Source of the DNA: a virus
Reading direction: 5' to 3' (one strand)
Length of the DNA: 28,778 nt
Virus record (IMG/VR): IMGVR_UViG_3300034082_000452
Location: 1 to 28,778 of that record
Shown: positions 3,661 through 23,515 of the stretch, in pieces
Layout: each line of letters starts with the position of its first letter
Position numbering within the stretch: position 1 is the first letter of the stretch
Program-made: the position numbers and the translations under genes
Notes under the pieces: generated by a model
What the model was told of the DNA's origin: nothing
Database searches by the model: none
Seen by the model: only the letters and a program-made list of their open reading frames with translations

Positions 3661-4800
3661 ATGACCAATAGTTGTAAGAGTCCATGGGCAGGCATCTTTA
3701 TTGAAACGGACGGCAAGGTAAAATCTTGCTGTGCGGGTGCTTATTACTGGGGCAATCTTCATGACAATTCTATAGAAGAAATAATCAATGGTGAAAAAGC
3801 TCAGGCAATACGTCAGGAAATAATTAACGATGTACCAAGTAGTTATTGCCTAGGCTGTAGACGTGATGAAGAACGCACTGGATACAGCCTACGTAGTTAC
3901 TATGACCAATTTACTCTAACCCAAGATCAATTAGCCGCTGCTGATACATTTATACCACGTAACCTAGACATTCGGTGGAATGCCCTGTGTAATCTAAACT
4001 GTGTATACTGTAATGAATTTAGCAGTACTAAATGGCAAAAGATCAAAGGTATCCCTGTAGAGCTAACCGAGCGTGCCTATTACGATAATCTATTAGACTA
4101 CATAGAGCAACACAGTCAAGATATCGAAATTCTACTGTTGGTCGGTGGCGAGCCGCTATTACCCAAACAGAATGTTAGATTACTCAAAAGTCTAGACGAG
4201 GATATACACATAGATGTTATCAGTAACCTAAGTGTAGATCTAGACTCTAACGCAGTGTTCCAACAACTTAAAAATAAAACTAAAGTAGGCTGGAAAATCA
4301 GCGCAGAAACTATAGGTCAACGTTTTGAGTATGTTAGGCATGGTGCTAAGTGGGATAAATTTGTCAGCAACTTAAAAGCAATCAAATTACTGCCCGGGCA
4401 TCAAATTACTCTATTACCAGTGTACTGTATCTATAGTGCTACTAATCTGGTAGAGCTTTATGAGTTTGTTAATGAACTAGGTATTCAAATCCATTGGCAA
4501 AACTTGTGGGGTCCAGAATATCAAAATCTGGCAAATTTTAGTAAACCTGTAAGAGACCTAGCAATAGCAGAAATAGATCGTGCGCTGGCATTGCCTTATA
4601 TAGACAAGTTTGATCGAGGTATGAATCGTACATTCTTAGAAACCATGCGCAGTCAGCTATCAGCAGTTGACTCTGAAACTAACTGTAATCAACAGTTCTT
4701 ATTGTGGTGTACTGAATATGAAGTCAAACATACCGAACACCTACCCGAATTTGCCGAGATATGGTTAGACCTATACAAGGTTATCAAGTATGACCTGTAG
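3661..4800 (+). CDS. Radical SAM protein with N-terminal twitch-type cysteines (1 of 3)
   Basis: A protein of 379 residues. The radical SAM CX3CX2C motif is C110, C114 and C117, which should hold the 4Fe-4S cluster that cleaves S-adenosylmethionine. A VGGEPLL segment is the usual SAM-binding GGE motif. Ahead of the core, C5, C23, C24, C63 and C66 look like a half-SPASM (twitch) auxiliary cluster placed N-terminally, where most SPASM domains are C-terminal. Enzymes of this broad group modify peptides, sugars or other small substrates; the substrate here is unknown. It is the first of three tandem relatives and overlaps the next gene by 11 bases, so the three are probably made together. Confidence 0.85.
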   Translation: MTNSCKSPWAGIFIETDGKVKSCCAGAYYWGNLHDNSIEEIINGEKAQAIRQEIINDVPSSYCLGCRRDEERTGYSLRSYYDQFTLTQDQLAAADTFIPRNLDIRWNALCNLNCVYCNEFSSTKWQKIKGIPVELTERAYYDNLLDYIEQHSQDIEILLLVGGEPLLPKQNVRLLKSLDEDIHIDVISNLSVDLDSNAVFQQLKNKTKVGWKISAETIGQRFEYVRHGAKWDKFVSNLKAIKLLPGHQITLLPVYCIYSATNLVELYEFVNELGIQIHWQNLWGPEYQNLANFSKPVRDLAIAEIDRALALPYIDKFDRGMNRTFLETMRSQLSAVDSETNCNQQFLLWCTEYEVKHTEHLPEFAEIWLDLYKVIKYDL

Positions 4801-5947
4801 CTGTGTACTAGCAGACATTGGACTAGCTACACAGACCAACGGCGAAATTACTATATGTAACCAAAGCAGAACTAGTTTTAAACAGGGCGCAGAACTCATG
4901 CGACTAGATAAACATACACTCGCACAAGGGTGGAATAGTCTAACACGTCAAGAGATACGCGGAAGTTTAAACAACGGCGTCAGACACCCTAACTGCCAAG
5001 ACTGCTGGGCAGAAGAAGATGCGGGCAGATTAAGTCAACGCAACATTGTCAATGAACGATTTAAAGATGTTGTAGCATATCAAGAACAGCCCAGAGTGTT
5101 TATGCTCAAGCCGGGCAATGCCTGTAACCTAGCCTGTCGTCACTGTAATCCGCATGTGAGCAGTGGTTGGTATAAAGACCATCATAAACTTACAGCAACT
5201 GGCAGTTTCGTAGACTATGTTAAGACTTATAACTACATTAGAGATGGCTACACACAAGACAGCGATGTATGGACTACACTAGGTCAATGGAATGATAATA
5301 TTGTTTACTATGATTTATATGGTGCCGAGCCGCTACTAATAGAACCACTGTTAGAACTATTACGCTCAGGCAACTCAGAGCAAACTGTACACGTTAACAC
5401 CAATGGCACTATTTGGCAAGATGACTTCAATGAAGTGTTTGGTAAATTTAAACACGTTGAACTAGGAGTTAGTATTGATGCCATCGGTGAGCAATTTGAA
5501 TACATGCGCTATCCAGCTAAGTGGGATCATCTACTGGCTAATCTATTAAAATACAAACTACTGGCTGAAAAATATCCTAGTATTGATCTTAGTGTGTGTA
5601 TCACAGCTAGTGTATTAAATGTCTATTATTTGGCAGAATATGTTCAGTTTTTCCACAATTTAGGCATAGAAGTGGGCATAAACTTCGTACATAGACCCGA
5701 TTATTTAAACATGCGTATACTACCCACAAAAGTCAAACAAAAGGTAATTAGCAAGTTACACAGCGCAGGATTTGCCAACGGATGGGATAGTAAGATAGAT
5801 CATATTATCAATTTCTTAATGTTAGACCACGATGCTAGCGAACAGCTAATGACCGAGATGTGGGCATTTACTAATAGCTATGACACTATTAGAAAACAAA
5901 ACTACGCGGATACATTTAAAGAATTCTACGAGATATTAAATGAGTAA
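4790..5947 (+). CDS. Radical SAM protein with N-terminal twitch-type cysteines (2 of 3)
   Basis: A protein of 385 residues, clearly related to its two neighbours. The CX3CX2C motif is C112, C116 and C119 (ACNLACRHC). The usual GGEP SAM-binding motif is GAEP here (within YDLYGAEPLL), a conservative change. N-terminal cysteines C3, C5, C23, C69 and C72 are in positions comparable with the auxiliary-cluster cysteines of the neighbours, although the paired CC is replaced by a single C. The central part keeps the strand-rich barrel pattern (VHVNTNGTIW; LGVSIDAIG). It overlaps the upstream gene by 11 bases and the downstream gene by 8. Function and substrate are unknown. The tandem arrangement suggests related or sequential reactions. 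Confidence 0.84.
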   Translation: MTCSCVLADIGLATQTNGEITICNQSRTSFKQGAELMRLDKHTLAQGWNSLTRQEIRGSLNNGVRHPNCQDCWAEEDAGRLSQRNIVNERFKDVVAYQEQPRVFMLKPGNACNLACRHCNPHVSSGWYKDHHKLTATGSFVDYVKTYNYIRDGYTQDSDVWTTLGQWNDNIVYYDLYGAEPLLIEPLLELLRSGNSEQTVHVNTNGTIWQDDFNEVFGKFKHVELGVSIDAIGEQFEYMRYPAKWDHLLANLLKYKLLAEKYPSIDLSVCITASVLNVYYLAEYVQFFHNLGIEVGINFVHRPDYLNMRILPTKVKQKVISKLHSAGFANGWDSKIDHIINFLMLDHDASEQLMTEMWAFTNSYDTIRKQNYADTFKEFYEILNE

Positions 5948-7157
5948 TACCTTATGTTCATTTGCCTTTGCGCACACTGATATAGAACCCAACGGTGATA
6001 TCAAGTTCTGCTGTGCGGCCATGGGCAATGTACACCGTGATCCCGAGGGTCGCTTGTATAATGTTAATACCCATACCCTTAAGCAAGCATGGAACAGTGA
6101 ACTACTTAAACAAACACGCCTAGAAATGATTGCTGGTCAAAAACCGCAGTCATGTAGTTATTGTTGGCGTATGGAAAACGAAGATAATACCGCTGGAGCC
6201 AGTGTCAGACTACAGGCCGCTAACCAACGTATTCCAATTACAGATATAACAGACCGTGTTGAATATGCTCGAGCACACGGCGGTGAGTTAGAAGATCTAG
6301 CCTACGACTTTCAATTAAGTATAGGCAATCTGTGTAATCTTGCTTGTAAAATGTGTAATCCTACATTTAGTACTAGCTATCAAAAATTCTACAATAAATT
6401 AGATAATATATCCACACCAATTGTATCCTTTGATTGGCCAGTTACATTATCACTACCAGAAATATTTAAAGATCATATCAGCAGTATTCAACGTATATTC
6501 TTTACAGGTGGCGAGCCTACACTAATACCAGAAGTAGTTGACTTTATTGATTACCTAAGCAGTAATCCTAATATTACCATTTGGCCTAGCACCAATTGTA
6601 CCAACATCAATAAGCACCTACTAGACAGCCTAAGCAAGTTTAATAAAGTATGGCTTAACCTTAGCCTAGACGGCATGGATGACATTGCTTATCTACAGCG
6701 CACACCAAGTAATTGGCCCAGCATAGAAAAGAATGTAGACCTGCTGGCCGATTGGATCAAAGCCCAATCCAGTCAACGTGTGATACACACTACATTGATC
6801 ACCACTATCACCTTGCTGAATCTACATCACGTACTAGACTTTTGGAGTTACATTTCTAAACGCTACGCAGACAGAATACATTTTGGACTAGCTATTAATC
6901 TTGTGTTGGACAAAGGCAGCAACTACGGATTAGAAAACGTTCCAAGAGATGCTATTCCAAAAATACAAGCACAGTTAGAATCATTTAAACAGGATGTTCC
7001 GTATCGTATGGAATATGCTGTTGAGTATATAGACAACTTATTACGCACGACTGCTTGGGCTGATGATTACACTGGTATAGACCATTGGTTAAGTGAATTA
7101 CAACGAGCACATCCGGACAAAAATATCAAAGAAATCTATAGCATTTATTACAAATAG
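5940..7157 (+). CDS. Radical SAM protein with N-terminal twitch-type cysteines (3 of 3)
   Basis: A protein of 405 residues. The radical SAM motif is C132, C136 and C139 (LCNLACKMC), followed by FTGGEPTLI, the SAM-binding GGE motif. N-terminal C6, C24, C25, C72 and C75 match the auxiliary-cluster layout of the first tandem gene, and NGDIKFCC is a typical entry to a SPASM/twitch half-domain. Compared with the first copy there is a longer spacer between the N-terminal domain and the core, and a longer C-terminus. It is the last gene of the overlapping trio; a 77-base gap then precedes the polymerase. The product is cytoplasmic. The substrate is unknown. Candidates suggested by the window are sugars or nucleotides, but nothing in the sequence decides this. 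Confidence 0.85.
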   Translation: MSNTLCSFAFAHTDIEPNGDIKFCCAAMGNVHRDPEGRLYNVNTHTLKQAWNSELLKQTRLEMIAGQKPQSCSYCWRMENEDNTAGASVRLQAANQRIPITDITDRVEYARAHGGELEDLAYDFQLSIGNLCNLACKMCNPTFSTSYQKFYNKLDNISTPIVSFDWPVTLSLPEIFKDHISSIQRIFFTGGEPTLIPEVVDFIDYLSSNPNITIWPSTNCTNINKHLLDSLSKFNKVWLNLSLDGMDDIAYLQRTPSNWPSIEKNVDLLADWIKAQSSQRVIHTTLITTITLLNLHHVLDFWSYISKRYADRIHFGLAINLVLDKGSNYGLENVPRDAIPKIQAQLESFKQDVPYRMEYAVEYIDNLLRTTAWADDYTGIDHWLSELQRAHPDKNIKEIYSIYYK

Positions 7158-7205
7158 ACTATATAATAGTAGTATCGTACACTTACGTACATGTAGAAAA
7201 GTATT

Positions 7206-7229
7206 TGCCAGCTATAAGTGGCATAGGAG
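7206..7229 (+). promoter_or_regulatory. Hairpin at the DNA polymerase ribosome site, gp43-operator-like
   Basis: TGCCA (7206-7210) pairs with TGGCA (7219-7223), a five-pair stem around an eight-base loop (GCTATAAG). The Shine-Dalgarno AGGAG (7225-7229) begins one base after the stem, and the ATG is at 7235. The T4 gp43 polymerase represses its own translation by binding a hairpin with a five-pair stem and eight-base loop just 5' of its ribosome site, so position and geometry match. The loop sequence differs from T4's. Confidence 0.5.
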
Positions 7230-7234
7230 AGTTA

Positions 7235-9892
7235 ATGAGTTATGTAGACGCACTATTCGATCGGACAAAAGATCGAATCTACGTTGTTGAACGCAACAAC
7301 GGTCAAAGAGAATATAAAGAATACCCAGCAAACTATGTGTTTTATTACGATGATCCTCGTGGTAAGTTCCGTACAATCTACGACACACCGGTAAGCCGAT
7401 TTAGTACTAAAGTAGGCAAAGAATTCCATAAAGAAGTAAGGGTTAATTCAGGTAAAAAGATATGGGAAAGTGATATCAATCCTGTGTTCCGTTGCTTTGA
7501 AGATAACTATCTAGGCAAACCTGCTCCTAAATTACAAACTGCGTTCTTCGATATTGAAGTTGACTTTGACCCTGTGCGTGGGTTTAGTCGACCCGACGAC
7601 CCATTTAATCCAATTACTGCGGTAACTGTTTACCTAGACTGGTTAGACAAGCTGGTTACTATGGTAGTGCCTCCCAAGAGCATGAGCTGGGAAACTGCTG
7701 AAGAAATTGCTGGTAAGTTTGATAACTGTTTCCTAATGGAACGTGAAGAGGACCTGCTTAACACATTCTTAGATCTAATTGATGATGCGGATATCTTAAG
7801 TGGTTGGAACTCAGAAGGCTTTGATATCCCCTACATGGTCATGCGTACCAATCGTGTCCTAAGCAAAGATGATACCAGACGCTATTGCCTATGGGGTCAG
7901 TATCCCAAGCAACGTGACTTTGAACGCTTTGGTGCTACAAACTTGACCTTTGACCTTATTGGTCGTGTACACCTAGACTACATGCAGCTTTATCGCAAGT
8001 ACACATATGAAGAACGTCACAGTTATAGTTTAGATGCTATTGCTGAATACGAGTTAGATGAGCGTAAGACACAGTACGAAGGCACATTAGATCAACTGTA
8101 CAACAAAGACTTTCCTACGTTTATCGAGTACAACAGACAAGATACTATGCTATTAGGCAAGCTAGACAAGAAACTACGCTTCTTAGATCTAGCCAATGAA
8201 TTGGCACATGACAATACTGTGTTGCTACAAACAACAATGGGTGCTGTGGCTGTTACAGAACAGGCTATTATTAACGAAGCTCATCAACTTGGTATGGTTG
8301 TACCCAATCGTAACCGTGATGAACAGTTTAACACACAGGCCGCAGGTGCGTATGTAGCAACTCCAAAAGCAGGCATGCATGACTACATTGGCGCAGTTGA
8401 TATTAACTCACTGTACCCGTCAGCTATTCGTGCCTTAAACATGGGTCCAGAAACTATTGTAGGCCAACTACGTCCTATTATGACTGACCATTATATCAAA
8501 AGCAAAATGGATGCTGGCAGTAGTTTTGCTGACGCATGGGAGGGCTTGTTTGGTAGCCTAGAGTATTCGGCAGTTATGAATGGTGAAATTGGTACAGAGA
8601 TTACCATTGATTGGATCAACGGTGAATGTGATGTACTAAGTGCCGCAGATGTTTGGCGATTGATCTTTGACAGCAACAAGACTTGGATCCTTAGTGCTAA
8701 CGGTACTATCTTTAGTAATGATCGTAAGGGTGTTATACCAGGCTTACTAGAACGTTGGTATGCTGAACGTAAAGAAATGCAGGCTAAAAAGAAAGAAGCT
8801 GTCACAGACGAGGATATTGCGTTTTGGGACAAACGACAACTAGTTAAAAAGATTAACTTGAACAGTTTGTATGGTGCTATTTTGAATCCCGGATGCCGTT
8901 TCTTTGACAAACGTATTGGACAGTCAACTACACTTACTGGTCGTACTGTTGCTAAACACATGGATGCTTACATTAATGAATGTATCACAGGCAAGTATGA
9001 TCACATAGGTGAAGCAATTATCTATGGTGATACTGACTCATGCTACTTTAGTGCTTGGCCTATTGTTCGAGCTGATGTAGAAGCGGGCAAGATGGAATGG
9101 AACAAAGACATTGCTGTACAACTGTATGATACCATTGCTGATCAGGTTAACGAAAGTTTTCCAGGCTTCTGCGAAAAGGCATTTCACACTCCACGTCGTC
9201 AAGGTGAGCTAATCAAAGGTGGGCGAGAGCTTGTAGCACTCAAAGGCTTGTTTATTAAAAAGAAACGTTATGCTGTGCTAATCTATGACATGGAAGGTAA
9301 ACGTTTAGATAGTCATGGTTACCCAGGTAAAGTTAAAGCCATGGGCCTAGACTTAAAACGTAGTGATACTCCTAAGGTTATTCAAGACTTCCTAAGTGAA
9401 ATTTTACTTGATACGCTTACCGGTAGCCCACGTGAGGATATCATTAAGAAAGTCCGTGACTTTAAACTGATCTTTACAGAGCGTCCAGCATGGGAAAAAG
9501 GTACACCCAAACGTGTAAATAATTTAACCAAGTACACAGCAGAAGAAGCACGCCTAGGCAAAGCAAATATGCCGGGTCACGTTAGAGCTGCTATGAACTG
9601 GAATAACCTAAAACGTATGATGGGCGATAACTATTCTATGGCCATTGTTGATGGCATGAAGACTGTGGTTTGTAAGTTAAAAGACAATCCGCTAGGCTAC
9701 AGTAGCGTTGGATATCCCACAGACGAATCACATATTCCTGGTTGGTTTAAAGAGTTGCCGTTTGATGATGCCCTAATGGAAACAGGCATTGTAGATCAAA
9801 AGGTAGAAAACTTGTTGGGTGTGTTGAATTGGAAGATCAGTGAAAACACACAGATATCAACAACGTTTGATGATTTGTTTACATTTGAGTAA
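7235..9892 (+). CDS. 43: T4 gp43-like family B DNA polymerase
   Basis: The replicative DNA polymerase with 3'-5' proofreading, 885 residues from the chosen ATG (T4 gp43 is about 900). Exonuclease motifs: DIE (106-108), GWNSEGFDIPY, and YNRQDT. Polymerase motif A is DINSLYPS (from 389), motif B is KKINLNSLYG (538-547) and motif C is YGDTDS (597-602), with catalytic aspartates 389, 599 and 601. The last residues, FDDLFTFE, resemble the C-terminal peptide by which gp43 holds the sliding clamp; a clamp gene lies 2.2 kb downstream. An ATG 30 bases earlier (7205) is possible, but AGGAG at 7225-7229 fits the 7235 start, and starting at 7205 would put a likely regulatory hairpin inside the coding region. 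The enzyme should work with the clamp and the 5'-3' exonuclease also encoded here. Confidence 0.96.
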   Translation: MSYVDALFDRTKDRIYVVERNNGQREYKEYPANYVFYYDDPRGKFRTIYDTPVSRFSTKVGKEFHKEVRVNSGKKIWESDINPVFRCFEDNYLGKPAPKLQTAFFDIEVDFDPVRGFSRPDDPFNPITAVTVYLDWLDKLVTMVVPPKSMSWETAEEIAGKFDNCFLMEREEDLLNTFLDLIDDADILSGWNSEGFDIPYMVMRTNRVLSKDDTRRYCLWGQYPKQRDFERFGATNLTFDLIGRVHLDYMQLYRKYTYEERHSYSLDAIAEYELDERKTQYEGTLDQLYNKDFPTFIEYNRQDTMLLGKLDKKLRFLDLANELAHDNTVLLQTTMGAVAVTEQAIINEAHQLGMVVPNRNRDEQFNTQAAGAYVATPKAGMHDYIGAVDINSLYPSAIRALNMGPETIVGQLRPIMTDHYIKSKMDAGSSFADAWEGLFGSLEYSAVMNGEIGTEITIDWINGECDVLSAADVWRLIFDSNKTWILSANGTIFSNDRKGVIPGLLERWYAERKEMQAKKKEAVTDEDIAFWDKRQLVKKINLNSLYGAILNPGCRFFDKRIGQSTTLTGRTVAKHMDAYINECITGKYDHIGEAIIYGDTDSCYFSAWPIVRADVEAGKMEWNKDIAVQLYDTIADQVNESFPGFCEKAFHTPRRQGELIKGGRELVALKGLFIKKKRYAVLIYDMEGKRLDSHGYPGKVKAMGLDLKRSDTPKVIQDFLSEILLDTLTGSPREDIIKKVRDFKLIFTERPAWEKGTPKRVNNLTKYTAEEARLGKANMPGHVRAAMNWNNLKRMMGDNYSMAIVDGMKTVVCKLKDNPLGYSSVGYPTDESHIPGWFKELPFDDALMETGIVDQKVENLLGVLNWKISENTQISTTFDDLFTFE

Positions 9893-9894
9893 TT

Positions 9895-11982
9895 ATGGCA
9901 GAAATAAAACTAATAAATGTTGATGCGTTGAAACAGATGCCGCGGCACCCACTAACAGTAGAACATGTGGGTGCGGAGCATCTTGATCGATATAACAAAC
10001 AGCACATGGATTTTAACAAAGATCTAAATCTCTACGGCAAATACTGCTTTCATCCGTTTAACAGTGTGACTATTGACGGGCAAGGTGATTGTTATGTATG
10101 CGTATGTCAAGCATGGTTACCTATTCCTGTGGGCAATATCATGGACTTTACCAGTTTACAAGCAATTGTACAGAGTCCACGTGCTCGTGAGATACAGGCC
10201 AGTATCATTGACGGTACTTACAAGTATTGCGATCACAAGACCTGTCACTTGATCGACAGTGGTAACTTAGAAACACGTATAGATCATAGACCAGATACTG
10301 TTAATTGGATTGTGTTTGCTCTAGATGATAGCTGTAATTTGAGTTGCCCAAGTTGTCGTACTAGTATGATATTTCATAACAAAGGTGAAGAGTTTGAACG
10401 TCGAATGGCTATCAGTGATCACTTGGTTACTCTTATCGAACAGCACGATCACTTTCTTAAGTTTACCCTAAGTGGCGATGGTGATCCATTTGCCAGTCAC
10501 ATTTATCGTAACATGCTGGACAAGTTAGATCTAACAGACAATAAAAATATTGAGATTGAAGTAGTAACCAACGGTATCCTAGTTAAGAGCCATTGGAATC
10601 GTATGGTAGGTGTACATGACAACGTGGTTAGAATGCGTATTAGTTTTGACGCAGGTTCTCCGGAAACCTATGCTGTTACACGCCGTGGCGGTGATTGGAA
10701 CAAACTTATAGAAAGCTGTAAGTACATTGTCAAATGGAAGCAGAAGAAGTACAGTAACATGGAACTACAGGCCGCGTTTGTTGTACAAAATTCCAACTAT
10801 CAAGACATACACAAGTATGTTAGCCTGGCTATGTCGTTAGGGTTTGACAGTATTATGTTACAAAAAGTAACTGATTGGGGCAAATGGACTGTCAACGGGG
10901 TCAACTACTTTTTTGATCATGCTGTGTGGCAACCAGACCATGCTAACTACCCAGCGTTGGTAGAACTGCTCAATGATCCAATTATGTCAAATCCTAAGGT
11001 AGACTTAACTAACCTATCACATCTACGCACCGACGAAGTGCCATTGGAATTATGTAGGATAGTTGAGTTAAAAAATGCCATACCAAAACAACTAACTGAT
11101 CATTTTGTTCAAATTGACCATATAACAGAGTCTATACACGATAATATCAACGAGCTTAGACCCGGTAATAGAAAGTTTGATGATGATTACGTTGACATGG
11201 TGCGTGTGTTAGAGCAGATCAACGAAAAAGTCACGTTCCTGCGCAACATCACCGAAAACTTAGAATCAAAATACAATAAAGAAATAACTCTAATGACCAA
11301 AGAGTTTTATCGTCAGGGCTATAAGATCGGCGGAGCCGAGGTATTAGTTAAGTCAGACTATCTAACTGAACGAACTAGAACCATGCCAATGAACGAAGAA
11401 ACAGCCACAGCAGTGGCTTCAGCAATTGGGCGTTATGTAAGTTGGGAATACCCCGGATTAGAAATAGGCCCAGGTGACGGCCTGTGGACTAAACATCTAG
11501 TAGGGTGTGATCCTTTGTATCTAGTAGACACTAACAAGGAGTTCCTAACTTCTAGCCTAGAACAATTTCACGAAGACTATCGTAGAAGGGTGCGCACCTA
11601 CACCACTGAAGGTACAGATCTAAGTATGCTACCACAAAATCAATTTGGGTTTGTCCTAGCATGGAATGTATTCAATTACCTAACAGCAGACTTGCTTGAC
11701 CTTTATCTAAGTGAGATTATAAAAGTTCTGCGTCCAGGTGGCTACTGTGTGTTTAGTTATAACAATGCTGAGAGAACTCATTCTGCGGCATTGGTTCAAA
11801 CTGGTTACATGAGTTACATGCCCAAGGCTTACTTACTTAAACTACTTAACAAGTATGGATTTGAAGTGATAGTCACATCCGATCTTGAAGAACATATAAG
11901 TTGGGTAGAAATAAAGAAACCGGGCGAACTACATACTGTAAAATCACATCAAGCAATGGCAAAAATTGTTCATAGAGCGTAA
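9895..11982 (+). CDS. Radical SAM / methyltransferase fusion protein
   Basis: A protein of 695 residues in three parts. Residues 51-117 hold candidate auxiliary-cluster cysteines (C51, C66, C69, C71, C112, C117). The radical SAM core follows, with C147, C151 and C154 (CNLSCPSC) and SGDGDP in place of GGE. After a long, probably coiled helical linker (about 395-480), residues from about 510 to the end are a class I SAM-dependent methyltransferase: LEIGPGDG (522-529) is the SAM-binding loop, LVDTN the acidic end of strand 2, and LRPGGYCVFSY the late motif. The protein would use SAM in two chemistries: radical generation and methyl transfer. It begins three bases after the polymerase stop. The substrate is unknown. 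The first part is akin to the tandem radical SAM proteins upstream. A read-through fusion from assembly error is unlikely because the frame is continuous. Confidence 0.85.
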   Translation: MAEIKLINVDALKQMPRHPLTVEHVGAEHLDRYNKQHMDFNKDLNLYGKYCFHPFNSVTIDGQGDCYVCVCQAWLPIPVGNIMDFTSLQAIVQSPRAREIQASIIDGTYKYCDHKTCHLIDSGNLETRIDHRPDTVNWIVFALDDSCNLSCPSCRTSMIFHNKGEEFERRMAISDHLVTLIEQHDHFLKFTLSGDGDPFASHIYRNMLDKLDLTDNKNIEIEVVTNGILVKSHWNRMVGVHDNVVRMRISFDAGSPETYAVTRRGGDWNKLIESCKYIVKWKQKKYSNMELQAAFVVQNSNYQDIHKYVSLAMSLGFDSIMLQKVTDWGKWTVNGVNYFFDHAVWQPDHANYPALVELLNDPIMSNPKVDLTNLSHLRTDEVPLELCRIVELKNAIPKQLTDHFVQIDHITESIHDNINELRPGNRKFDDDYVDMVRVLEQINEKVTFLRNITENLESKYNKEITLMTKEFYRQGYKIGGAEVLVKSDYLTERTRTMPMNEETATAVASAIGRYVSWEYPGLEIGPGDGLWTKHLVGCDPLYLVDTNKEFLTSSLEQFHEDYRRRVRTYTTEGTDLSMLPQNQFGFVLAWNVFNYLTADLLDLYLSEIIKVLRPGGYCVFSYNNAERTHSAALVQTGYMSYMPKAYLLKLLNKYGFEVIVTSDLEEHISWVEIKKPGELHTVKSHQAMAKIVHRA

Positions 11983-12054: not shown

Positions 12055-12786
12055 ATGAGAGACCATCTATTAGACATCGTTAAAAACACTTATGGCTTAG
12101 GCAACATTGACTTAGTTAAGGTTCAAGGTACAGCAGAAGAAACAACTATTGAAGCACTAGCCGAAGATCGTTCAGTTATTGTACAGGCTAAACTTAATGG
12201 ACCTGTGGCAGAGTTTGTTGGTACATTTGGTATGCCAAACCTAGCTAAACTAAACACTATCTTAGGTATTCCAGAATACAAAGAAAACGCTAAGATTTCA
12301 TTGACTAAACAAGATCGCAACGGCGAATCAGTTCCGGTGGGCCTACACTTTGAAAATGCCGCTGGCGACTTTAAAAATGACTATCGTTTTATGAGTCAAG
12401 AAATTGTAGCTGACAAACTTAAAACAGTTAAATTCCGCGGAGTTAACTGGAACGTAGAGTTTGAACCAACAGTAGCAAGTATTCAAAGACTAAAATTCCA
12501 AGCTAGTGCTAACAGCGAAGAAACTACGTTTACTGCTAAAACAGAAAACGGTGAGTTGAAATTCTTCTTTGGTGATCACAGTAGCCATGCTGGTAACTTT
12601 GTATTCCAATCAGGTGTATCAGGTACACTAAGCAAAGGTTGGGCATGGCCAGTTAACGCTGTTATTTCAATCTTAAACTTAAGCGGTGATAAAACATTCC
12701 GTATCAGTGATGAAGGTGCGGCACAGATTACTGTCAACACTGGCATTGCTACATACAACTACATCTTGCCAGCACAAAGCAAATAA
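12055..12786 (+). CDS. 45: Sliding clamp, gp45-like
   Basis: A protein of 243 residues (T4 gp45 is 228). The pattern of short amphipathic strands and two repeated half-domains, with an N-terminal MRDHLLDIVKNT helix, a LNGPVAEFVGTFGMPNLAKL segment comparable with the gp45 clamp core, and a C-terminal FVFQSGVSG...W-rich strand set, fits the trimeric clamp that tethers the polymerase to DNA. It is cytoplasmic and in T4 also serves late transcription. The identification rests on fold pattern, length and its place after the gp43-type polymerase, not on a diagnostic motif. AAGGAG lies seven bases before the ATG, suggesting strong translation. The next gene begins directly after its stop codon with no spacing. 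Confidence 0.78.
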   Translation: MRDHLLDIVKNTYGLGNIDLVKVQGTAEETTIEALAEDRSVIVQAKLNGPVAEFVGTFGMPNLAKLNTILGIPEYKENAKISLTKQDRNGESVPVGLHFENAAGDFKNDYRFMSQEIVADKLKTVKFRGVNWNVEFEPTVASIQRLKFQASANSEETTFTAKTENGELKFFFGDHSSHAGNFVFQSGVSGTLSKGWAWPVNAVISILNLSGDKTFRISDEGAAQITVNTGIATYNYILPAQSK

Positions 12787-16050: not shown

Positions 16051-16290
16051 GTGGCATCACAACCAGTTTGGCTTAAGAAATACCTTCGTATGACCCCAGA
16101 GGTCTCAAAAATCTACAACGACTTGGATGCGTGGATGAACTACTGTCGCTTCCGTATGATCAAGTTTGATGAAGCAGACTTGTACAAGTCACCTGAGTAT
16201 CGCGAGTGGCAAGAACGCCGCAAAAAACGCCAACAATGGCAACAACGTAATGGTCAGCCTGCTGGTTATCAAGGCAGGAATCCACGATAA
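16051..16290 (+). CDS. Small basic unknown phage protein, GTG start
   Basis: A protein of 79 residues. GTG is the likely start, with AAGGAG (16038-16043) seven bases upstream. The N-terminal part (VWLKKYLRMTPEVSKIYNDLDAW) is helical, then RFRMIKFDEADLY-x-SPEYREW, and the tail is very basic and glutamine-rich (RRKKRQQWQQRN), which suggests contact with nucleic acid. I recall similar short proteins in T4-like marine phages, annotated as hypothetical. Its stop overlaps the ATG of the glycosyltransferase by one base, so it leads into the sugar gene cassette. Confidence 0.68.
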   Translation: MASQPVWLKKYLRMTPEVSKIYNDLDAWMNYCRFRMIKFDEADLYKSPEYREWQERRKKRQQWQQRNGQPAGYQGRNPR

Positions 16291-17360
16291 TGACTGTATT
16301 TCTAGTTGATCTAGAAAGCGTTGAAACACGGTACACGGGCCAGTGGAAGGCTCATGTACCCAAACTATTGGAAGAACACGGACATGACGTATATGTTATC
16401 GCAGGACCACATGATATTCCTGCTGCTACTACCCCTGGCGCTTTTCTTAACTTTGGCGGCACTAACGTCTATAAGGCCAATCAAGTCGAGCAAATGGCTA
16501 GACTATTTACGGAAGGAAGGGTTGCTAAGGGTGATCACTTCATTTTTACTGACGCTTGGCATCCTGGGATTATTAACCTTAAGTATATGTCCGAGCTGTT
16601 GGGCATACCCGTCACTATTCACGCCTTGTGGCACGCTGGCAGTTACGACCCACAAGACTTCTTAGGACGTCTTATTGGCGATAAGCCCTGGGTTAGACAC
16701 AGTGAGAAAGCATTCTTTAGTGCTATAGATCATAACTACTTTGCCACAGACTTTCATATTAATATGTTTATTGAAAATCTATTAGATGAAGAACCTCGTA
16801 ATGGTCGCATGGGATATATGCCCATTAGTAAGATTGTACGTACAGGTTGGCCTATGGAATATATGCCAGAAACTATTACGCCGTACAAAGCCAAGAAGCG
16901 TGACTTAATCTTATTCCCACATCGTATAGCACCAGAGAAGCAGGTAGAAATCTTTAAGGACCTAGCACAAGCACTGCCGCAGTATGAGTGGATTGTTTGC
17001 CAGGAACAGAACTTAAGTAAAGAAGCGTATCATACCTTACTAGGTGAAGCTAAGTTAGTGTTTAGTGCCAATCTACAAGAAACTCTAGGCATTAGTATGT
17101 ATGAAGGTGCTATTGTAGATGCTATTCCTATGGTACCAGATAGACTATCATACAAGGAAATGTATGCTGAGATATGGAAGTATCCTAGTGAGTGGACTGA
17201 ATCCTACAGTAGTTTCTTACACAATAAACAAGCACTATGCGATAAGATTGTAGAGTTCATGACCGACTATGATGAATACGCTAAGTTAGTTCCACAACAG
17301 GCACGTAGTCTACATCACGATTTCTTTTCAGCAACTGAATTGCTAAAGAATATTAAATGA
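16290..17360 (+). CDS. GT-B glycosyltransferase (GT4-like)
   Basis: A protein of 356 residues with two Rossmann-like halves. The N-terminal half (VFLVDLESVETRYTGQW, then GHDVYVIAG and a domain with HALWHAGSYD) would bind the acceptor. The C-terminal half has the GT4 pattern: a LILFPHRIAPEKQVEIFKDL strand-helix and an EX7E motif (E264, E272, within QETLGISMYEGA) that normally contacts the sugar nucleotide in retaining enzymes. It heads a run of six genes joined by ATGA overlaps that includes a UDP-sugar dehydrogenase-like protein, two SDR proteins and a cupin. The acceptor may be modified phage DNA, a virion protein or a host glycan; the sequence does not say. Confidence 0.8.
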   Translation: MTVFLVDLESVETRYTGQWKAHVPKLLEEHGHDVYVIAGPHDIPAATTPGAFLNFGGTNVYKANQVEQMARLFTEGRVAKGDHFIFTDAWHPGIINLKYMSELLGIPVTIHALWHAGSYDPQDFLGRLIGDKPWVRHSEKAFFSAIDHNYFATDFHINMFIENLLDEEPRNGRMGYMPISKIVRTGWPMEYMPETITPYKAKKRDLILFPHRIAPEKQVEIFKDLAQALPQYEWIVCQEQNLSKEAYHTLLGEAKLVFSANLQETLGISMYEGAIVDAIPMVPDRLSYKEMYAEIWKYPSEWTESYSSFLHNKQALCDKIVEFMTDYDEYAKLVPQQARSLHHDFFSATELLKNIK

Positions 17361-17938
17361 GTTTTGATGCTATAGCAAAATTTGAGCGGGCACTAGGTGA
17401 GTTCACTGGTGCCCCTTTTGTTGTCATGACTGATTCGTGTACACACGCAATTGAGATGTGTCTGCGTTACGATCAAGTCAAACGTACAATGTTCCCAGCA
17501 TTTACATATTTGAGTATTCCAATGACCATGCGTAAGCTAGATATTTCATTTGGCTATACAGGTAACAATGAATGGATTGGCGAATATCAATTCCTAACCA
17601 CACGCATTTGGGACAGCGCACGTCTACTACAATTGGGTATGTATCGCAAAGGTCAGATGCAGTGTTTGAGCTTTGGCTATAGCAAACCATTAGACATTGG
17701 TCGTGGTGGTGCTATCTTATTAGATGATGAGCAAGCATACAACAGACTTATACAGCAACGTAGTGATGGGCGCGATTTATCTATTAGTCCTTGGCAAGAC
17801 CAAAAGATATTCGAAGTAGGGTATCATTACAGACCAACTATAGAAGAAGCAGTACGTGGATTAGAATTATTAGCTAACGTAGATCAGTCAGTTAAATATC
17901 ATAAATATCCAGACTTAAGAGAGATTGTAATATTATGA
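17357..17938 (+). CDS. Half-length DegT/DnrJ-type aminotransferase-like protein
   Basis: A protein of 193 residues resembling the large domain of sugar aminotransferases of the DegT/DnrJ/EryC1 family, which use PLP to put an amino group on a keto sugar. Visible landmarks: FVVMTDSCTHAIEM (phosphate-binding helix), MFPAFTYLSIPM (the substrate strand), IWDSAR (D86, the PLP ring-nitrogen aspartate) and SFGYSKPLDIGRGGAILLDD, where K110 matches the PLP Schiff-base lysine. Family members are about 370 residues, so the C-terminal small domain is missing or reduced, yet the frame ends cleanly in an ATGA overlap, which argues against a frameshift. It may act as a minimal enzyme or have another role. 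Confidence 0.7.
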   Translation: MSFDAIAKFERALGEFTGAPFVVMTDSCTHAIEMCLRYDQVKRTMFPAFTYLSIPMTMRKLDISFGYTGNNEWIGEYQFLTTRIWDSARLLQLGMYRKGQMQCLSFGYSKPLDIGRGGAILLDDEQAYNRLIQQRSDGRDLSISPWQDQKIFEVGYHYRPTIEEAVRGLELLANVDQSVKYHKYPDLREIVIL

Positions 17939-18720
17939 AAATAGGAATTATTGGTAAGGGTGTAGTTGGTAACGCAGTTTTTTGGGGGTTAGAATCAGTT
18001 GGCTATAAATTATCATACTACGATAAAAAAGAAGAAAACTCAAATATGGTTGATGTGCTTGACACAGAGATTGTGTTTATTTGTGTTCCAACCAATAGTA
18101 ACACTGACGGAACTTGTAACATTAGTATTGTAGAAGACACAGTCAGTCAACTTAGTCTATTAGATTATACAGGAATTATTGCTATAAAAAGCACAGTTAT
18201 ACCAGGTACAACTGAAAAGTTAATTAATAAATATCCTAGTCGCACTATCTGTTTTGTTCCAGAATTTTTAAAGGAACTTTCTGCTATATCCGACTTTGTA
18301 GATAATCACGATGTTTTGATTGTAGGCACTCATGATAAAACGGTCTATGATACCATAGTTAAATGTCACAGTCATTTACCTAACTCTACAGTACAGGTCA
18401 CTCCTACCGAAGCAGAAATAGCAAAATATTTTAGCAACGTGTATAACTCATTACGGATAACGTTTGCCAATGGTATGTTTGAAGTATGTAGATCGTTAGG
18501 CGCAGATTATCAACAGGTATTTAATGCCTGTATTAAACGCTCAACGATTAGCCCCGAGTATCTACGATGCTCCGAACACCTAAGAGGGTTTGGCGGGCAC
18601 TGTTTACCTAAAGATAGTCAAGCATTTGCTATTTTAATTAAAGATCTAGGATTAGATCATATAACATTATTTGACTCAATCGTTAATGATAATAGTCACC
18701 ACCTAAAGGATGTTAAATGA
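17935..18720 (+). CDS. Short UDP-glucose/GDP-mannose dehydrogenase-like protein
   Basis: A protein of 261 residues. GIIGKGVVGNAV (4-15) is the NAD-binding Rossmann motif; IVFICVPTNSNTDGTC and STVIPGTTEKL are typical of UDP-sugar 6-dehydrogenases; E161, K164 and N168 (in EIAKYFSNVYNSLRITFAN) and C223 (GFGGHCLPKD) match the catalytic lysine, asparagine and cysteine region. The known reaction is two-step NAD-dependent oxidation of the sugar-nucleotide C6 to a uronic acid. Standard enzymes have about 430 residues; the C-terminal UDP-binding domain is absent. The gene is intact, with ATGA overlaps on both sides, so this looks like a natural short form. Confidence 0.8.
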   Translation: MKIGIIGKGVVGNAVFWGLESVGYKLSYYDKKEENSNMVDVLDTEIVFICVPTNSNTDGTCNISIVEDTVSQLSLLDYTGIIAIKSTVIPGTTEKLINKYPSRTICFVPEFLKELSAISDFVDNHDVLIVGTHDKTVYDTIVKCHSHLPNSTVQVTPTEAEIAKYFSNVYNSLRITFANGMFEVCRSLGADYQQVFNACIKRSTISPEYLRCSEHLRGFGGHCLPKDSQAFAILIKDLGLDHITLFDSIVNDNSHHLKDVK

Positions 18721-19619
18721 AAATCTTAGTTACAGGTGCCGGTGGATTACTTGGCTACGAAATCTGTCAGCAACTATTACAAGGCGACAATGACATCTGG
18801 ACTGTGGATAATTACTATAGATCAGAATCTGTTCCTAGTGGATCAACATTTCTAAAAATTGATCTGTCAGATGCTACACAATTAGATCGATTGCCTACAG
18901 ACTTTGACTATATCTATCACTTCTCAGCTATCAACGGCACTGATAGATTTTATAAGATTCCCAATAAGGTATTACAAAATAACATTGTTGGAGATTTAAA
19001 TATTTTTGAATTTGCTGGTAAATGTACTAAACTAAAACGATTAGTATATGCTAGCAGTAGTGAAGTAGTTGCGGAAGATCCAGAACAACCAGTACCAGAA
19101 AAAGTCAACATAACAATAAATGACATACACAATGCTCGATGGAGTTATAGGTTAGCTAAAGTATGTTCTGAAAACTATCTGACTAACAGCAACTTACCAT
19201 GGTTGATAGTGCGTTACTTTAATGTTTATGGTGAACGCAGTCGCGATGGGCACTTTATCGATGATCAGATCCGCAAAATACAAAATAATGAATTTACAAT
19301 AATCGGGTCAAATGAATATAGAAGTTACTGTTATGTCACTGATGCTGTAAGTGCTACCATTGCTCTAGCATGTTTAGAGATACAAGATATTATAAACGTA
19401 GGAAATTCTGAACTGATTTCCATTGCCAAGGCGGCCGATACCATAGCCAAATTGCTAGGATATTCTGATGCCAATTGGAACGAAATATCTGGTCGTCCGG
19501 GCAGTACACTAGTGCGCCAGCCTAAGTTAGACAAACTGTACAGCTATCTTTCTGAATACAATCCTCGTACTTTCGAACAAGGCGTAGCACAGGTATTAAA
19601 AAATAGAGGACTAGTATGA
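18717..19619 (+). CDS. NAD-dependent sugar epimerase/dehydratase (extended SDR)
   Basis: A protein of 300 residues with the extended-SDR pattern: GAGGLLG (7-13) binds NAD; D31 closes strand 2; YASSSEVV (111-118) carries the catalytic serine; Y144 and K148 (YRLAK) are the catalytic pair. The RYFNVYGERSRDG segment and the C-terminal SGRPGST segment are those of sugar-nucleotide epimerases and dehydratases such as GalE- and RmlB-like proteins. It would act on a UDP- or dTDP-sugar in the cytoplasm. In the cassette it follows the UDP-sugar dehydrogenase-like gene and precedes a short SDR. Exact substrate and reaction are not decided by sequence. Confidence 0.85.
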   Translation: MKILVTGAGGLLGYEICQQLLQGDNDIWTVDNYYRSESVPSGSTFLKIDLSDATQLDRLPTDFDYIYHFSAINGTDRFYKIPNKVLQNNIVGDLNIFEFAGKCTKLKRLVYASSSEVVAEDPEQPVPEKVNITINDIHNARWSYRLAKVCSENYLTNSNLPWLIVRYFNVYGERSRDGHFIDDQIRKIQNNEFTIIGSNEYRSYCYVTDAVSATIALACLEIQDIINVGNSELISIAKAADTIAKLLGYSDANWNEISGRPGSTLVRQPKLDKLYSYLSEYNPRTFEQGVAQVLKNRGLV

Positions 19620-20233
19620 AGCACGTGTTTGTAACTGGTGGTTCTAGTGGCATTGGCCAAGCAATTTGTGAAGAGTTGCAACGTAGAGGCATTACTTATT
19701 ACGCTCCCACTAGAAAAGAACTTGATATGCGAGATTTTTTAAAGGTCGCAACTACTAATCTAACTGCTTATGATACAGTAATACACTGTGCTGGAGTAAA
19801 CTGCGGAAGTTATCTTGGATTTGAGAGCAATCCTGTTGAAAATCAAGTTGAACAAATTGATGTGAATTTTATCGCAGGGATAATGCTTATTAAAAATGTA
19901 GTTCAGCAAACTAACATCAAACGATTTATATACATCAGTTCTGACAGTTTTATAGTTAATAAACCATTTGGGGTCGTGTATTCTGCCAGTAAACTAGCAT
20001 TACAATTTACAGTAAATACGTTAAGATCATACTATACTAATATCAAATGGACCGAGGTATTAATTGGCCGTACTCGAACAAACTTATTATACAATAATTA
20101 TTTAGGAACTAGAACGCACGAGCAAGTTACAGAAGAATATAATGCTCTCTCTTGTTTGGAAGTGAGCCAAGTGGTTGATTTAATATTTAAAACAGTTAAC
20201 GAAGATTTAGATTATGTGGAACTAAGACCATGA
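19616..20233 (+). CDS. Short-chain dehydrogenase/reductase (SDR)
   Basis: A protein of 205 residues. TGGSSGIG (7-14) is the classical cofactor motif; HCAGV (57-61) corresponds to the conserved NAG/CAG; YISSDS (106-111) has the catalytic serine; Y122 and K126 (YSASK) complete the triad. The protein is slightly shorter than most classical SDRs (about 250). Its place among sugar-nucleotide genes with ATGA overlaps suggests reduction or epimerisation of a keto sugar, but classical SDRs act on many substrates. Confidence 0.82.
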   Translation: MKHVFVTGGSSGIGQAICEELQRRGITYYAPTRKELDMRDFLKVATTNLTAYDTVIHCAGVNCGSYLGFESNPVENQVEQIDVNFIAGIMLIKNVVQQTNIKRFIYISSDSFIVNKPFGVVYSASKLALQFTVNTLRSYYTNIKWTEVLIGRTRTNLLYNNYLGTRTHEQVTEEYNALSCLEVSQVVDLIFKTVNEDLDYVELRP

Positions 20234-20616
20234 ACGGAAAGATTGTAGTATTACAACCAGCAATTAACAAAACAACTATTACAGATGGGCGTGGAGCAAT
20301 TCTAAGTTTTATTCCATCGGCACCTGTATTAGAGTTCGTCTATCAAGTAACAAATGCTGGTTCTTCAAGAGGATATCATTATCATCCAGAGTTTGACGAA
20401 TACGTATTATTCACTGAAGGTGAAGGGGTGTATATAGAACAACTCGATGACGGCACAGATAGGTTTATCACTATTGGCCCAGGGGTGTGTGTTTATATAC
20501 CTTCAGGTGTTTATCACACATTCAATGCTATTACATTAATGAAGTCAGTTAGTCTACTAACTAAACCCTGGGATAGCTGTGAAAATCCTATCATTTTGAA
20601 AAAAGATAACGTATAA
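20230..20616 (+). CDS. Cupin-fold sugar isomerase-like protein
   Basis: A protein of 128 residues with a single cupin barrel: SRGYHYHPEFDEYVLFTEG holds the histidines and glutamate of cupin motif 1, and GPGVCVYIPSGVYHTFNA is motif 2. The RGYHYH phrase is like that of sugar-nucleotide 3,4-ketoisomerases (FdtA/WxcM type) and RmlC-related cupins. This is consistent with the last position in a sugar-nucleotide cassette. It overlaps the SDR gene by ATGA. The cassette ends here: a gap of 89 bases with a new promoter follows. Confidence 0.72.
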   Translation: MNGKIVVLQPAINKTTITDGRGAILSFIPSAPVLEFVYQVTNAGSSRGYHYHPEFDEYVLFTEGEGVYIEQLDDGTDRFITIGPGVCVYIPSGVYHTFNAITLMKSVSLLTKPWDSCENPIILKKDNV

Positions 20617-20662: not shown

Positions 20663-20705
20663 AACTTATCAATTGCCAATCCACTGGCTTAACATCGGAG
20701 ACTAT

Positions 20706-21401
20706 ATGTCGAAATACAAAGTAAGCGAACATATTCGCAACAATCTAAAAGCATCAAACAAACGTTTCTGGGCAGGTGACAACATCTCAGAATACATCAC
20801 AGAAGAAAACAAAGAACTATTAATCGACGAAGCAACTGAAGCATTTGAAGCAGTGCTGGATACATTGTTAATTGATCGCGAAAACGATCCTAACAGTCAC
20901 GGTACAGCACGTAGACTAGCTAAGATGTACTTCAATGAGATCATGGCAGGTCGCTATGAACCTAATCCAGATGCTACAGCATTTCCAAATGACTCAGTAG
21001 ATCGTTATGAAGGTATGCTGGTAGTACGTAGCGAACTACGCAGTATGTGTAGTCATCACCATCAGCCAGTTAAAGGTGTTGCCTACATTGGTATTATTGC
21101 CGCTAGCAAACTAATCGGCTTATCTAAATACACACGTATCGCACAGTGGTGTGCTACACGTGGTACTCTACAAGAAGAACTATGTAACGATATCACACGT
21201 GAGATTATGAAAGCAACAGGCAGTGATAACGTAGCAGTCTACATTCAAGCCACACATGGTTGCTGTGAGAATCGTGGCATCATGGCACATAGTAGCCTAA
21301 CACAAACAACTGTTCTTAAGGGTGTTTTTAAGAATGATCCAGATGCTAAGAAAGAGTTCTTTGACAACATCAAACTACAACAAGAGTTTGCTCCTCGATA
21401 A
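20706..21401 (+). CDS. folE: GTP cyclohydrolase I
   Basis: 231 residues from the ATG at 20706, chosen over one at 20673 because GGAG (20697-20700) lies five bases before it and the promoter ends at 20662. The zinc site is C115, H118 and C187: CSHHHQP (115-121) and GCCENRG match the C-x-HH and C-x-x-RG motifs of FolE. The middle (GLSKYTRI, AQWCATRG) is the conserved core. FolE converts GTP to dihydroneopterin triphosphate, the first step in folate and 7-deazaguanine synthesis. With QueD-like and QueE in the window and a DpdA-like enzyme, the latter use is more likely. It is a single-gene unit between its own promoter and that of the protease. Confidence 0.93.
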   Translation: MSKYKVSEHIRNNLKASNKRFWAGDNISEYITEENKELLIDEATEAFEAVLDTLLIDRENDPNSHGTARRLAKMYFNEIMAGRYEPNPDATAFPNDSVDRYEGMLVVRSELRSMCSHHHQPVKGVAYIGIIAASKLIGLSKYTRIAQWCATRGTLQEELCNDITREIMKATGSDNVAVYIQATHGCCENRGIMAHSSLTQTTVLKGVFKNDPDAKKEFFDNIKLQQEFAPR

Positions 21402-21472: not shown

Positions 21473-23515
21473 ATGAATAAGTTAGTAATAGCATTACTAG
21501 CGTCGGGTCTTTGGTCTTCTGTACAAGCAGAAACTTTAGATCTAACCCCATATAACACTGCTGAATACACAGCTAATACCATTAGCGCAGGTAAAACTAA
21601 CGATGACTTCCTAAGAGTTATCAATACCAGTTCAGCTTGGGCACGTGGCTACACAGGTAAAGGTAGTACCATTCTTATTATTGATAGTGGTATTAACGCC
21701 AATCATAAAGAATTTGCCGGCAGTATCCTGTTCCAAAAAGATTTTATTCGATCTAAAAACGGAATGATTGACGTAGTAGGTCATGGTACAGGACTAGCTG
21801 GTATTGCGGCTGCCAATTGGGATGGTGTTGGTATGGCGGGCGTAGCACCTGACGCTAGTTTAGCTATTGCCAAAGTTACTGATAGTGCTTCTTCATTTAA
21901 CTTTGTACAGGCACGTAACGCACTAGTTTGGGGTAACCAAATTGGTGCTGTGGTGGCGAATATTTCAGCAAACGTAACATACGACACTACCTACAATAAG
22001 AACTGGACTAAGTTAACGGACGGCACTTGGTATAATAAAGATCCGCGATATACTGGTAGATATTTTGGCGGTGACAATCCCTACACATGGGCAAGTGCGT
22101 TAGGCAAGGAAATGGTCCTAGTTAACAGTGCTGGTAACAGTGGTAAAGCGTACCCGCAACAACCCGGCACATTGGCCACAGCCACAGATGCTAGTGGTAA
22201 TTTAATATTAGGTGGCCAAGTATTGATTGTTGGTGCTTATGATATAACCAATAACAACATCGCAAGTTATAGTAATCGTGCCGGGCATGTTTGTCAAAGT
22301 GTAAGCGCAAGTGGTACCTGTGCTGACAAATATCGTGTTAGTCAATTCTATATTCTAGCACCAGGTAATGCGTTCACTGCTGACGATGTGGGCAATAACT
22401 ATGTTATTCAAACGGGTACTAGTCAAGCGGCGGCCGTAGTATCAGGAAGTGTAGCAGTTATTAATCAAATGTGGCCCTATATGAAAGGTGAAAACATTGT
22501 TAAACTGCTAACATCAACAGCAAATAAAAATATCGCAGGGTACACTCCGGATGTACACGGACAAGGTCTATTAGACTTAGAACGAGCCACACGTCCGTTT
22601 GGCAGTATAGGTATTCCAACTACCGGTCGCACAGGAAAGATTGCGCTTAATGGTGGGTTTAGTACTAACACATCAGGTGGTTTAAGTAGCATTAGCAGTA
22701 AGTTAAGCAGTGTAGTGGTCACCGACGAGTTTGATCGTGACTACCGTATAGATCTAAGCACAACTGCTAATAATAAACGTGCCCGTGCTGATTTCAATCC
22801 TATTGCCAAAGCACAGTTCTATGACAACTACAATCCGTATAATAAGTTAAACTTCTACTCATTTAGTGCTACTGTCCCCAGTGGCGAATATGATATCAAG
22901 TTGGCCGCAAATGACTATACAGGCACTGCTATGCTTGATGTAGGCAAGAATGTGGTAGTTGACAATGTAAAGTATCGTGTAGGCTTTGGTATGTTAAACG
23001 AACGTGATGCTTGGATGGGCAATAGCATCGGTGGTATGTTTGGGCAAGTGCGTGAAAGTTACACTCAATTTACCAACTTCAGTGGTAGTTATAACCTAAA
23101 TAAACAAGTAAGTGTGTTTGGTAGTGCTTGGTTAGGTTACACTACTGCCAACTTGGCCGCACAGGGTCTTGTGACTAACGTAGGCGACACACAGAGTTAC
23201 AGTTGGAATGCTGGTTTAGATTGGACCAAAGACTCGCATAGTATTGGTGCTACAGTAAGTCAACCAGTTACTGTGTACAAAGGTACAGTTAATGTGGCAC
23301 TACCAGTTAGCGTGTCAGCAAATGGTACTGTAAACTTTAGTAAAGAACGTGTAAGTATTGTGTCAAATGTAGTAGAGTATGACGTTGGTGCGTATTACAA
23401 ATACAAAGCCAAGGGCACTAACTTAATTGCCTATACTGAACATCAAATGAACTACTTAAATCAAGCAGGTGTTACAAATAACCAAATTGGGTTAGCATTA
23501 GCCAAGGAGTGGTAG
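21473..23515 (+). CDS. Secreted subtilisin-family (S8) protease with autotransporter-like C-terminus
   Basis: A protein of 680 residues. Residues 1-19 are a Sec signal peptide (MNKLVIALLASGLWSSVQA, cut before E20). The S8 catalytic residues are D71 (IIDSGIN), H104 (GHGTGLAG), the oxyanion N222 (SAGNSG) and S317 (GTSQAAA). Two cysteines, C274 and C283, could pair outside the cytoplasm. From about residue 375 to the end the protein is rich in alternating strands with serine, threonine, tyrosine and asparagine, and ends LALAKEW; a terminal aromatic residue is typical of outer-membrane beta barrels. The whole resembles autotransporter serine proteases of Gram-negative bacteria (SphB1/NalP type). 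An alternative is a soluble beta-domain. It has its own promoter with inverted repeats. A role at the host surface, such as processing of receptors, is inference. Confidence 0.88.
   Translation: MNKLVIALLASGLWSSVQAETLDLTPYNTAEYTANTISAGKTNDDFLRVINTSSAWARGYTGKGSTILIIDSGINANHKEFAGSILFQKDFIRSKNGMIDVVGHGTGLAGIAAANWDGVGMAGVAPDASLAIAKVTDSASSFNFVQARNALVWGNQIGAVVANISANVTYDTTYNKNWTKLTDGTWYNKDPRYTGRYFGGDNPYTWASALGKEMVLVNSAGNSGKAYPQQPGTLATATDASGNLILGGQVLIVGAYDITNNNIASYSNRAGHVCQSVSASGTCADKYRVSQFYILAPGNAFTADDVGNNYVIQTGTSQAAAVVSGSVAVINQMWPYMKGENIVKLLTSTANKNIAGYTPDVHGQGLLDLERATRPFGSIGIPTTGRTGKIALNGGFSTNTSGGLSSISSKLSSVVVTDEFDRDYRIDLSTTANNKRARADFNPIAKAQFYDNYNPYNKLNFYSFSATVPSGEYDIKLAANDYTGTAMLDVGKNVVVDNVKYRVGFGMLNERDAWMGNSIGGMFGQVRESYTQFTNFSGSYNLNKQVSVFGSAWLGYTTANLAAQGLVTNVGDTQSYSWNAGLDWTKDSHSIGATVSQPVTVYKGTVNVALPVSVSANGTVNFSKERVSIVSNVVEYDVGAYYKYKAKGTNLIAYTEHQMNYLNQAGVTNNQIGLALAKEW

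Follow-up and report, generated by a model that had tools for sequence, protein, structure and literature searches.

The window analyzed here is a virus record of 28,778 bases (IMGVR_UViG_3300034082_000452) that encodes a family B DNA polymerase of the gp43 type, and a short hairpin lies directly in front of the Shine-Dalgarno sequence (SD) of this gene. An earlier note, made from the letters alone, had called the gene gp43-like, and this is borne out by its match to phrog_262 (E 6e-190), by its Pfam domains DNA_pol_B and exo1 (exonuclease), and by RB69 gp43 as the best PDB relatives (E about 1e-60). The note had also described a TGCCA/TGGCA stem with an eight-base loop, one base 5' of the SD, and the sequence agrees, given that positions 7206-7223 read TGCCA-GCTATAAG-TGGCA, followed by T7224, AGGAG at 7225-7229 and the ATG at 7235. 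Folding of the leader predicts pair probabilities of 0.80-0.96 for the 5-bp stem. However, approximately 8% of 77-nt shuffles, and likewise approximately 8% of the 77-nt stretches of the window, contain a Watson-Crick stem of 5 bp that closes an 8-nt loop, and the folding energy of the leader is ordinary compared with shuffles (z +0.75). Arguments from the single sequence, be it stability or the mere presence of a hairpin, were for these reasons discarded as evidence. Our comparison of leaders shows that the hairpin is real, but on its own it does not exceed chance and becomes highly significant only through that comparison, in which it appears as one helix of an element of approximately 50 nt (7177-7223). 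This element consists of a 5' hairpin (P1), a single-stranded linker and an H-type pseudoknot (stems S1 and S2, loops L1 and L3) that ends at the SD. The stem of the earlier note is genuine and corresponds to S2; the description was incomplete in that it overlooked P1 upstream and did not see that loop bases 7211-7213 pair with 7200-7202.

Conserved helices of the leader RNA

Polymerase homologues were taken from viral contigs and 157 distinct leaders were compared; all relatives that bear the element are metagenomic. In 96 of the 157 leaders there is a stem close to the SD whose strands are exactly eight bases apart and whose loop starts with RCY. S2 is 3-7 bp long across the family and takes very different sequences, for example UGCCA/UGGCA in the window and UGUGUGA/UCGCACA, GACCA/UGGUC, UGUCG/CGACA, GUGUAA/UUACAC, GAUUG/CAAUC or CCG/CGG in relatives. 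All 96 leaders also have P1 (G...C, then A[U/A/G]G) 5' of S2, and the linker that follows starts with AUG in 86 of them, with AAG in eight and with AGG in two. A start-stop upstream open reading frame (ORF), AUG-UAG at 7191, was considered and dropped, given that many relatives have A, C or G directly after the AUG.

Covariation of the two helices was assessed in 40 diverse leaders that MAFFT had aligned on sequence alone (A2). Across P1 and S2, 93% of the alignment cells are paired, two-sided changes occur in 111 cells compared with 35 in shuffles, and the covariation score for the two helices is 0.80 compared with 0.29 in shuffles and <0.1 with the partners slid. The P1 columns are 100% paired, with two-sided changes at three of the four pairs, and both helices are recovered independently by RNAalifold. 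The earlier note had proposed looking in relatives for covarying stem bases and a fixed eight-base loop, and both are present: all five S2 pairs change on both sides, and the 8-nt spacing is constant in every aligned leader.

The eight bases between the S2 strands follow the family consensus RCYNNAAN, and the first three are complementary to an RGY located 1-4 nt 5' of S2 (GCC with GGY, GCU with AGY, ACU with AGU). No base separates the S2 5' strand from the S1 3' strand. The set of 96 leaders was chosen by the RCY loop start and the 8-nt spacing and not by the bases 5' of S2 that are used in the S1 test. In this test, a complement within 8 nt 5' of S2 was present in 63 of 63 distinct leaders, compared with 15.5 expected from shuffling; other loop registers gave far worse counts, and after exchanging GCC and GCU loops between leaders the complement was present in 0 of 62. 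One leader (L165) was left out because the parser over-extended its S2; with a shorter S2, and S1 assigned by hand, it also fits the pseudoknot. Since related leaders make sequence counts overstate independence, the polymerase tree is the safer measure for S1, and there well-supported branches force at least four changes between GCC and GCU. Both S1 strands agree in every row of the tree comparison. Leaders L132 and L134, whose branches on this tree are very short, differ in both S1 strands. The adenines at positions 3 and 4 of the five L3 bases are present in all 67 distinct pseudoknots. The lengths of L1 and S2 are inversely related (rho -0.76), which agrees with deep-groove geometry; this relation was not counted as independent proof, given that it may follow from the fixed 6-8 nt between the S1 strands. 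Comparison of the leader sequences shows a conserved H-type pseudoknot RNA in which S1 and S2 both covary.

Table 1 Features of the polymerase leader in the window.
Feature	Positions	Strand	Basis or remark
TATAAT, possible promoter ~15 nt 5' of P1	7162-7167	+	Putative function
P1 hairpin, 5' strand GUAC	7177-7180	+	Pairs with 7187-7190; predicted pair probability ~0.76 in the window
P1 hairpin, 3' strand GUAC	7187-7190	+	Covariation, pair probability
Conserved single-stranded linker AUGUAGA (consensus A[U/A/G]GNA...)	7191-7197	+	(Near-)invariant A2 columns
Pseudoknot stem S1, 5' strand AGU	7200-7202	+	Complementary to 7211-7213
Pseudoknot loop L1, AUU	7203-7205	+	1-4 nt in the family
Pseudoknot stem S2, 5' strand UGCCA (5' arm of the reported hairpin)	7206-7210	+	Covaries
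S1, 3' strand GCU (bases 1-3 of the reported loop)	7211-7213	+	Complementarity to 7200-7202
Loop L3, AUAAG (consensus NNAAN)	7214-7218	+	Conserved adenines
S2, 3' strand UGGCA (3' arm of the reported hairpin)	7219-7223	+	Covaries; adjoins the SD
SD of the polymerase gene, AGGAG	7225-7229	+	Sequence
gp43-type family B DNA polymerase, 885 aa, gene presumed regulated	7235-9892	+	phrog_262, Pfam and PDB matches

Setting in polymerase operons

A covariance model of P1 and S2 (R1) has a sole match in the window, at 7174-7228 (58.7 bits, E 2.5e-14). Among 24 long contigs of up to 374 kb, 16 have one strong match, a 17th has only a weak, chance-like one, and in none does a second match exceed 20 bits. 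A general regulator with many sites was rejected because strong matches are limited to one per contig. Two weaker matches, of 19.7 and 13.4 bits, look coding and are without the features of the element. Two pattern scans across all viral contigs, with patterns that represent two common types of the element and not all of them, gave 218 occurrences, of which 216 have usable downstream sequence. The polymerase gene starts within 1.5 kb downstream in 215 of these (directly downstream in 210) and lies 1.85 kb away in the last one. The earlier note had placed the structure at the SD of the polymerase, which holds well beyond the window: a polymerase operon is the setting of 216 of the 216 checkable occurrences, and S2 either overlaps the SD (26 of the 96 leaders) or ends within 2 nt of it (54), that is, 80 of 96 combined. 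When the element is present, the upstream stop codon is mostly found 59-77 nt before the polymerase start, which leaves just enough room for the element, whereas in relatives that lack it the polymerase start mostly abuts or overlaps the previous stop codon. A motif resembling the T4 late promoter, TATAAATA (with at most one mismatch), is found 5' of P1 in 58 of 95 leaders compared with approximately 14% in shuffles, and the polymerase mRNA may start just 5' of P1.

In several phages a gene stands between the element and the polymerase, such as a 57-aa ORF (L111), a 360-aa ORF (L252) or a 101-aa ORF (L155). L064 (2229-2969) and also L477 carry a reverse-strand endonuclease-like ORF that follows the element and precedes the start of the polymerase gene, possibly a homing insertion that splits the operator from its gene. 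In two phages, L063 (763-1374) and L386 (after its element), sulfotransferase-like genes with a PRTGSTL-like motif separate the element from the polymerase. It seems that cargo genes can be taken up in the slot 3' of the element. L049 (2963-2999) is a natural case of pseudoknot loss with P1 and the SD retained, possibly an unregulated variant.

Elsewhere in the window, three radical-SAM proteins are encoded at 3661-7157, and another, fused to a methyltransferase, at 9895-11982. A complete S-adenosylmethionine (SAM) synthetase with all three Pfam domains is located at 26031-27131. GTP cyclohydrolase I and a QueE-like radical SAM protein (20673-21401 and 24962-25834) possibly belong to a 7-deazaguanine pathway for DNA or tRNA modification. 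The phrog_12062 protein at 12055-12786 may be a clamp, given that a gene just 3' of the polymerase in Sinorhizobium phage Phosso is annotated as sliding clamp. Sugar-nucleotide genes (UDP-glucose/GDP-mannose dehydrogenase, epimerase) occupy 16290-20616 together with a possible glycosyltransferase and aminotransferase, and a 680-aa protein at 21473-23515 combines a signal-like N-terminus, an S8 subtilase domain and an autotransporter-type barrel-like C-terminus, which is unusual phage cargo.

Proposed mechanism and alternatives

The structure, the pseudoknot, the position at the SD and the confinement to polymerase operons are shown by comparison of sequences, and they give good support to a role of the element in controlling translation of the polymerase in cis. 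We infer that the element gates or represses translation initiation. The reported hairpin is S2 of a probably cis-acting leader RNA made up of P1, the AUGNA linker and an H-type pseudoknot ending at the SD; a ligand would stabilize the pseudoknot, 30S subunits would be barred from the SD, and polymerase synthesis would stop. The likeliest ligand would be polymerase that is not engaged on DNA, giving autogenous repression as in T4/RB69 gp43 and gp32. It is the analogy with T4/RB69 gp43 that makes autogenous repression the likeliest form of control, and the polymerase is named as ligand by that analogy alone. Taken as a whole, a translational switch built on a leader pseudoknot, with the polymerase as its most likely ligand, is the explanation towards which we lean by a modest amount. 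We are evenly divided on the broader claim that P1 plus an H-type pseudoknot at the SD constitutes a new RNA family, which would be the autogenous operator of gp43-type polymerases in a large clade of uncultured phages and would occur in matched GGY/GCC and AGY/GCU variants.

Several observations weigh against the favored explanation. The conserved unpaired bases would fit another protein or a small ligand equally well, and the structure differs from that of the T4 gp43 operator. Seven of the 24 long contigs are without a match to the element, L049 has kept P1 and lost the pseudoknot, and, given this loss and the relatives that lack the element, control through the polymerase leader is dispensable. 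In the few phages with an intervening gene, the element would act on that gene first.

The same pseudoknot switch could be run by another phage or host protein, such as an SSB, a RegA-like repressor, a clamp or a ribosomal protein. The architecture is closer to the SSB-bound pseudoknot of gene 32 than to the gp43 hairpin, T4 RegA represses replication genes in trans (PMC3014915), and the possible sliding clamp gene described above belongs to the same cluster. However, a trans regulator usually has several sites, whereas none of the long contigs shows a second strong site and polymerase operons are the setting of all 216 checkable occurrences; for RegA in particular, the known sites are unstructured (PMC3014915). 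We consider such a protein unlikely. Slightly less probable still is a small-molecule riboswitch of the H-type at the SD, similar to preQ1 or SAM-II, that senses a nucleotide, SAM or a 7-deazaguanine precursor. A compact SD pseudoknot with conserved unpaired bases would suit it, as would the SAM synthetase, GTP cyclohydrolase I and (by sequence) QueE-like protein encoded in the window, but no Rfam riboswitch matches even at E up to 10, and the element never stands upstream of metabolic genes alone, being found in polymerase operons only.

A constitutive structure, either a 5' leader that stabilizes the mRNA or a ligand-free attenuator of translation with a fixed effect, would fit the promoter-like motif 5' of many leaders, which would put the element near the mRNA 5' end. 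A passive stabilizer, however, needs neither a conserved linker nor an invariant RCYNNAAN nor a covarying 3-bp pseudoknot helix, and we regard this explanation as improbable. The view of the earlier note was that the leader holds a true member of the T4 gp43 operator family, a hairpin of 5 bp and an 8-nt loop whose diverged loop sequence could have co-evolved with the polymerase. The gene family, the place, the 8-nt strand spacing and the adenines in the loop are indeed shared, and the loop does differ from the T4 one as the note had said, with no AAUAACUC loop of the T4/RB69 type. The claim that the geometry is exactly that of T4 fails, given a stem of 3-7 bp, paired loop bases 1-3 and a constant upstream hairpin; moreover, P1 and the AUGNA linker are not visible in the T4 and RB69 leaders, and polymerases of intermediate divergence are without the element. 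Membership of the T4 gp43 operator family proper is in our judgment very improbable.

Comparison with known RNAs and phages

No Rfam 15 covariance model gives a gathering-level match in the window, and a permissive search (E up to 10) gave only chance-level matches for the window leader and none for the leader of L154. A passing likeness of GCCAUAAACG to the fluoride riboswitch was dropped, there being no Rfam match. The element is absent from the polymerase leaders of the isolated phages Phosso, Atu_ph07, GAP32, 121Q, RaK2, SCTP-2, PA5oct and others. The nearest polymerases from isolated phages have 53% identity or less, and since their leaders lack the element there is no visible continuity with T4. 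Among genome contigs the only relative, a metagenome-assembled genome contig titled Pacearchaeota, is without it. We found no published description of the element in the open-access literature searched; the text of a survey of 104 motifs makes no mention of DNA polymerase (PMC2864571). The element provides a marker, specific and at the RNA level, for a group of phages to which no isolate in the searched phage collection is close.

Riboswitches of the preQ1 and SAM-II classes mask the SD with a compact pseudoknot. The element resembles them as a compact H-type pseudoknot at the SD, but differs in having P1, in the missing Rfam match and in its confinement to polymerase operons. The operator of E. 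coli rpsO (S15) is likewise an autogenous translational operator with a pseudoknot (PMC3014915), although gene, sequence and host setting are unrelated. The gene 32 pseudoknot of T4, T2 and RB69 shares with the element the H-type fold and the location in the leader of a replication-protein gene. However, it precedes the gene of the SSB (gp32) and not that of the polymerase, and it lies approximately 67 nt 5' of the start codon, where it nucleates binding on an A+U-rich tract (PMC3014915), whereas the element abuts or overlaps the SD. According to a 2010 review, gene 43 is without evidence of a pseudoknot, and the gene 32 pseudoknot is perhaps the only viral one in translational autoregulation (PMC3014915).

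The closest comparison is the gene 43 operator of T4 and RB69, where the gp43 of each phage binds a hairpin in the equivalent part of the leader (PMC3014915). The element has in common with it a gp43-type gene, a location just 5' of the SD, 8 nt between the strands and presumed translational repression. The T4-type operator has a single stem of 4-5 bp and eight unpaired loop bases, which are of the AAUAACUC type (UAAC, or UAAA in RB49) and read AAUAACUC in the T4 and RB69 leaders. In the element, by contrast, the stem is 3-7 bp, the loop is RCYNNAAN with bases 1-3 complementary to upstream sequence in every leader tested, and P1 and the AUGNA linker are constant. On this comparison of sequences, the likeness to T4 (5 bp and an 8-nt loop) is superficial and the element is not a T4 gp43 operator. 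The T4 gp43 protein and its operator are a textbook case of polymerase self-regulation, and the first RNA SELEX experiment was aimed at them. Here, the ribosome-binding site of a gp43-type gene bears a conserved pseudoknot that nature offers in hundreds of examples, with clean compensatory switches, and how replicative polymerases come to recognize their own mRNA thereby becomes directly testable. The results suggest more than one architecture for control through polymerase leaders and, if the proposed mechanism is true, the element solves the control problem known from T4 with another kind of RNA.
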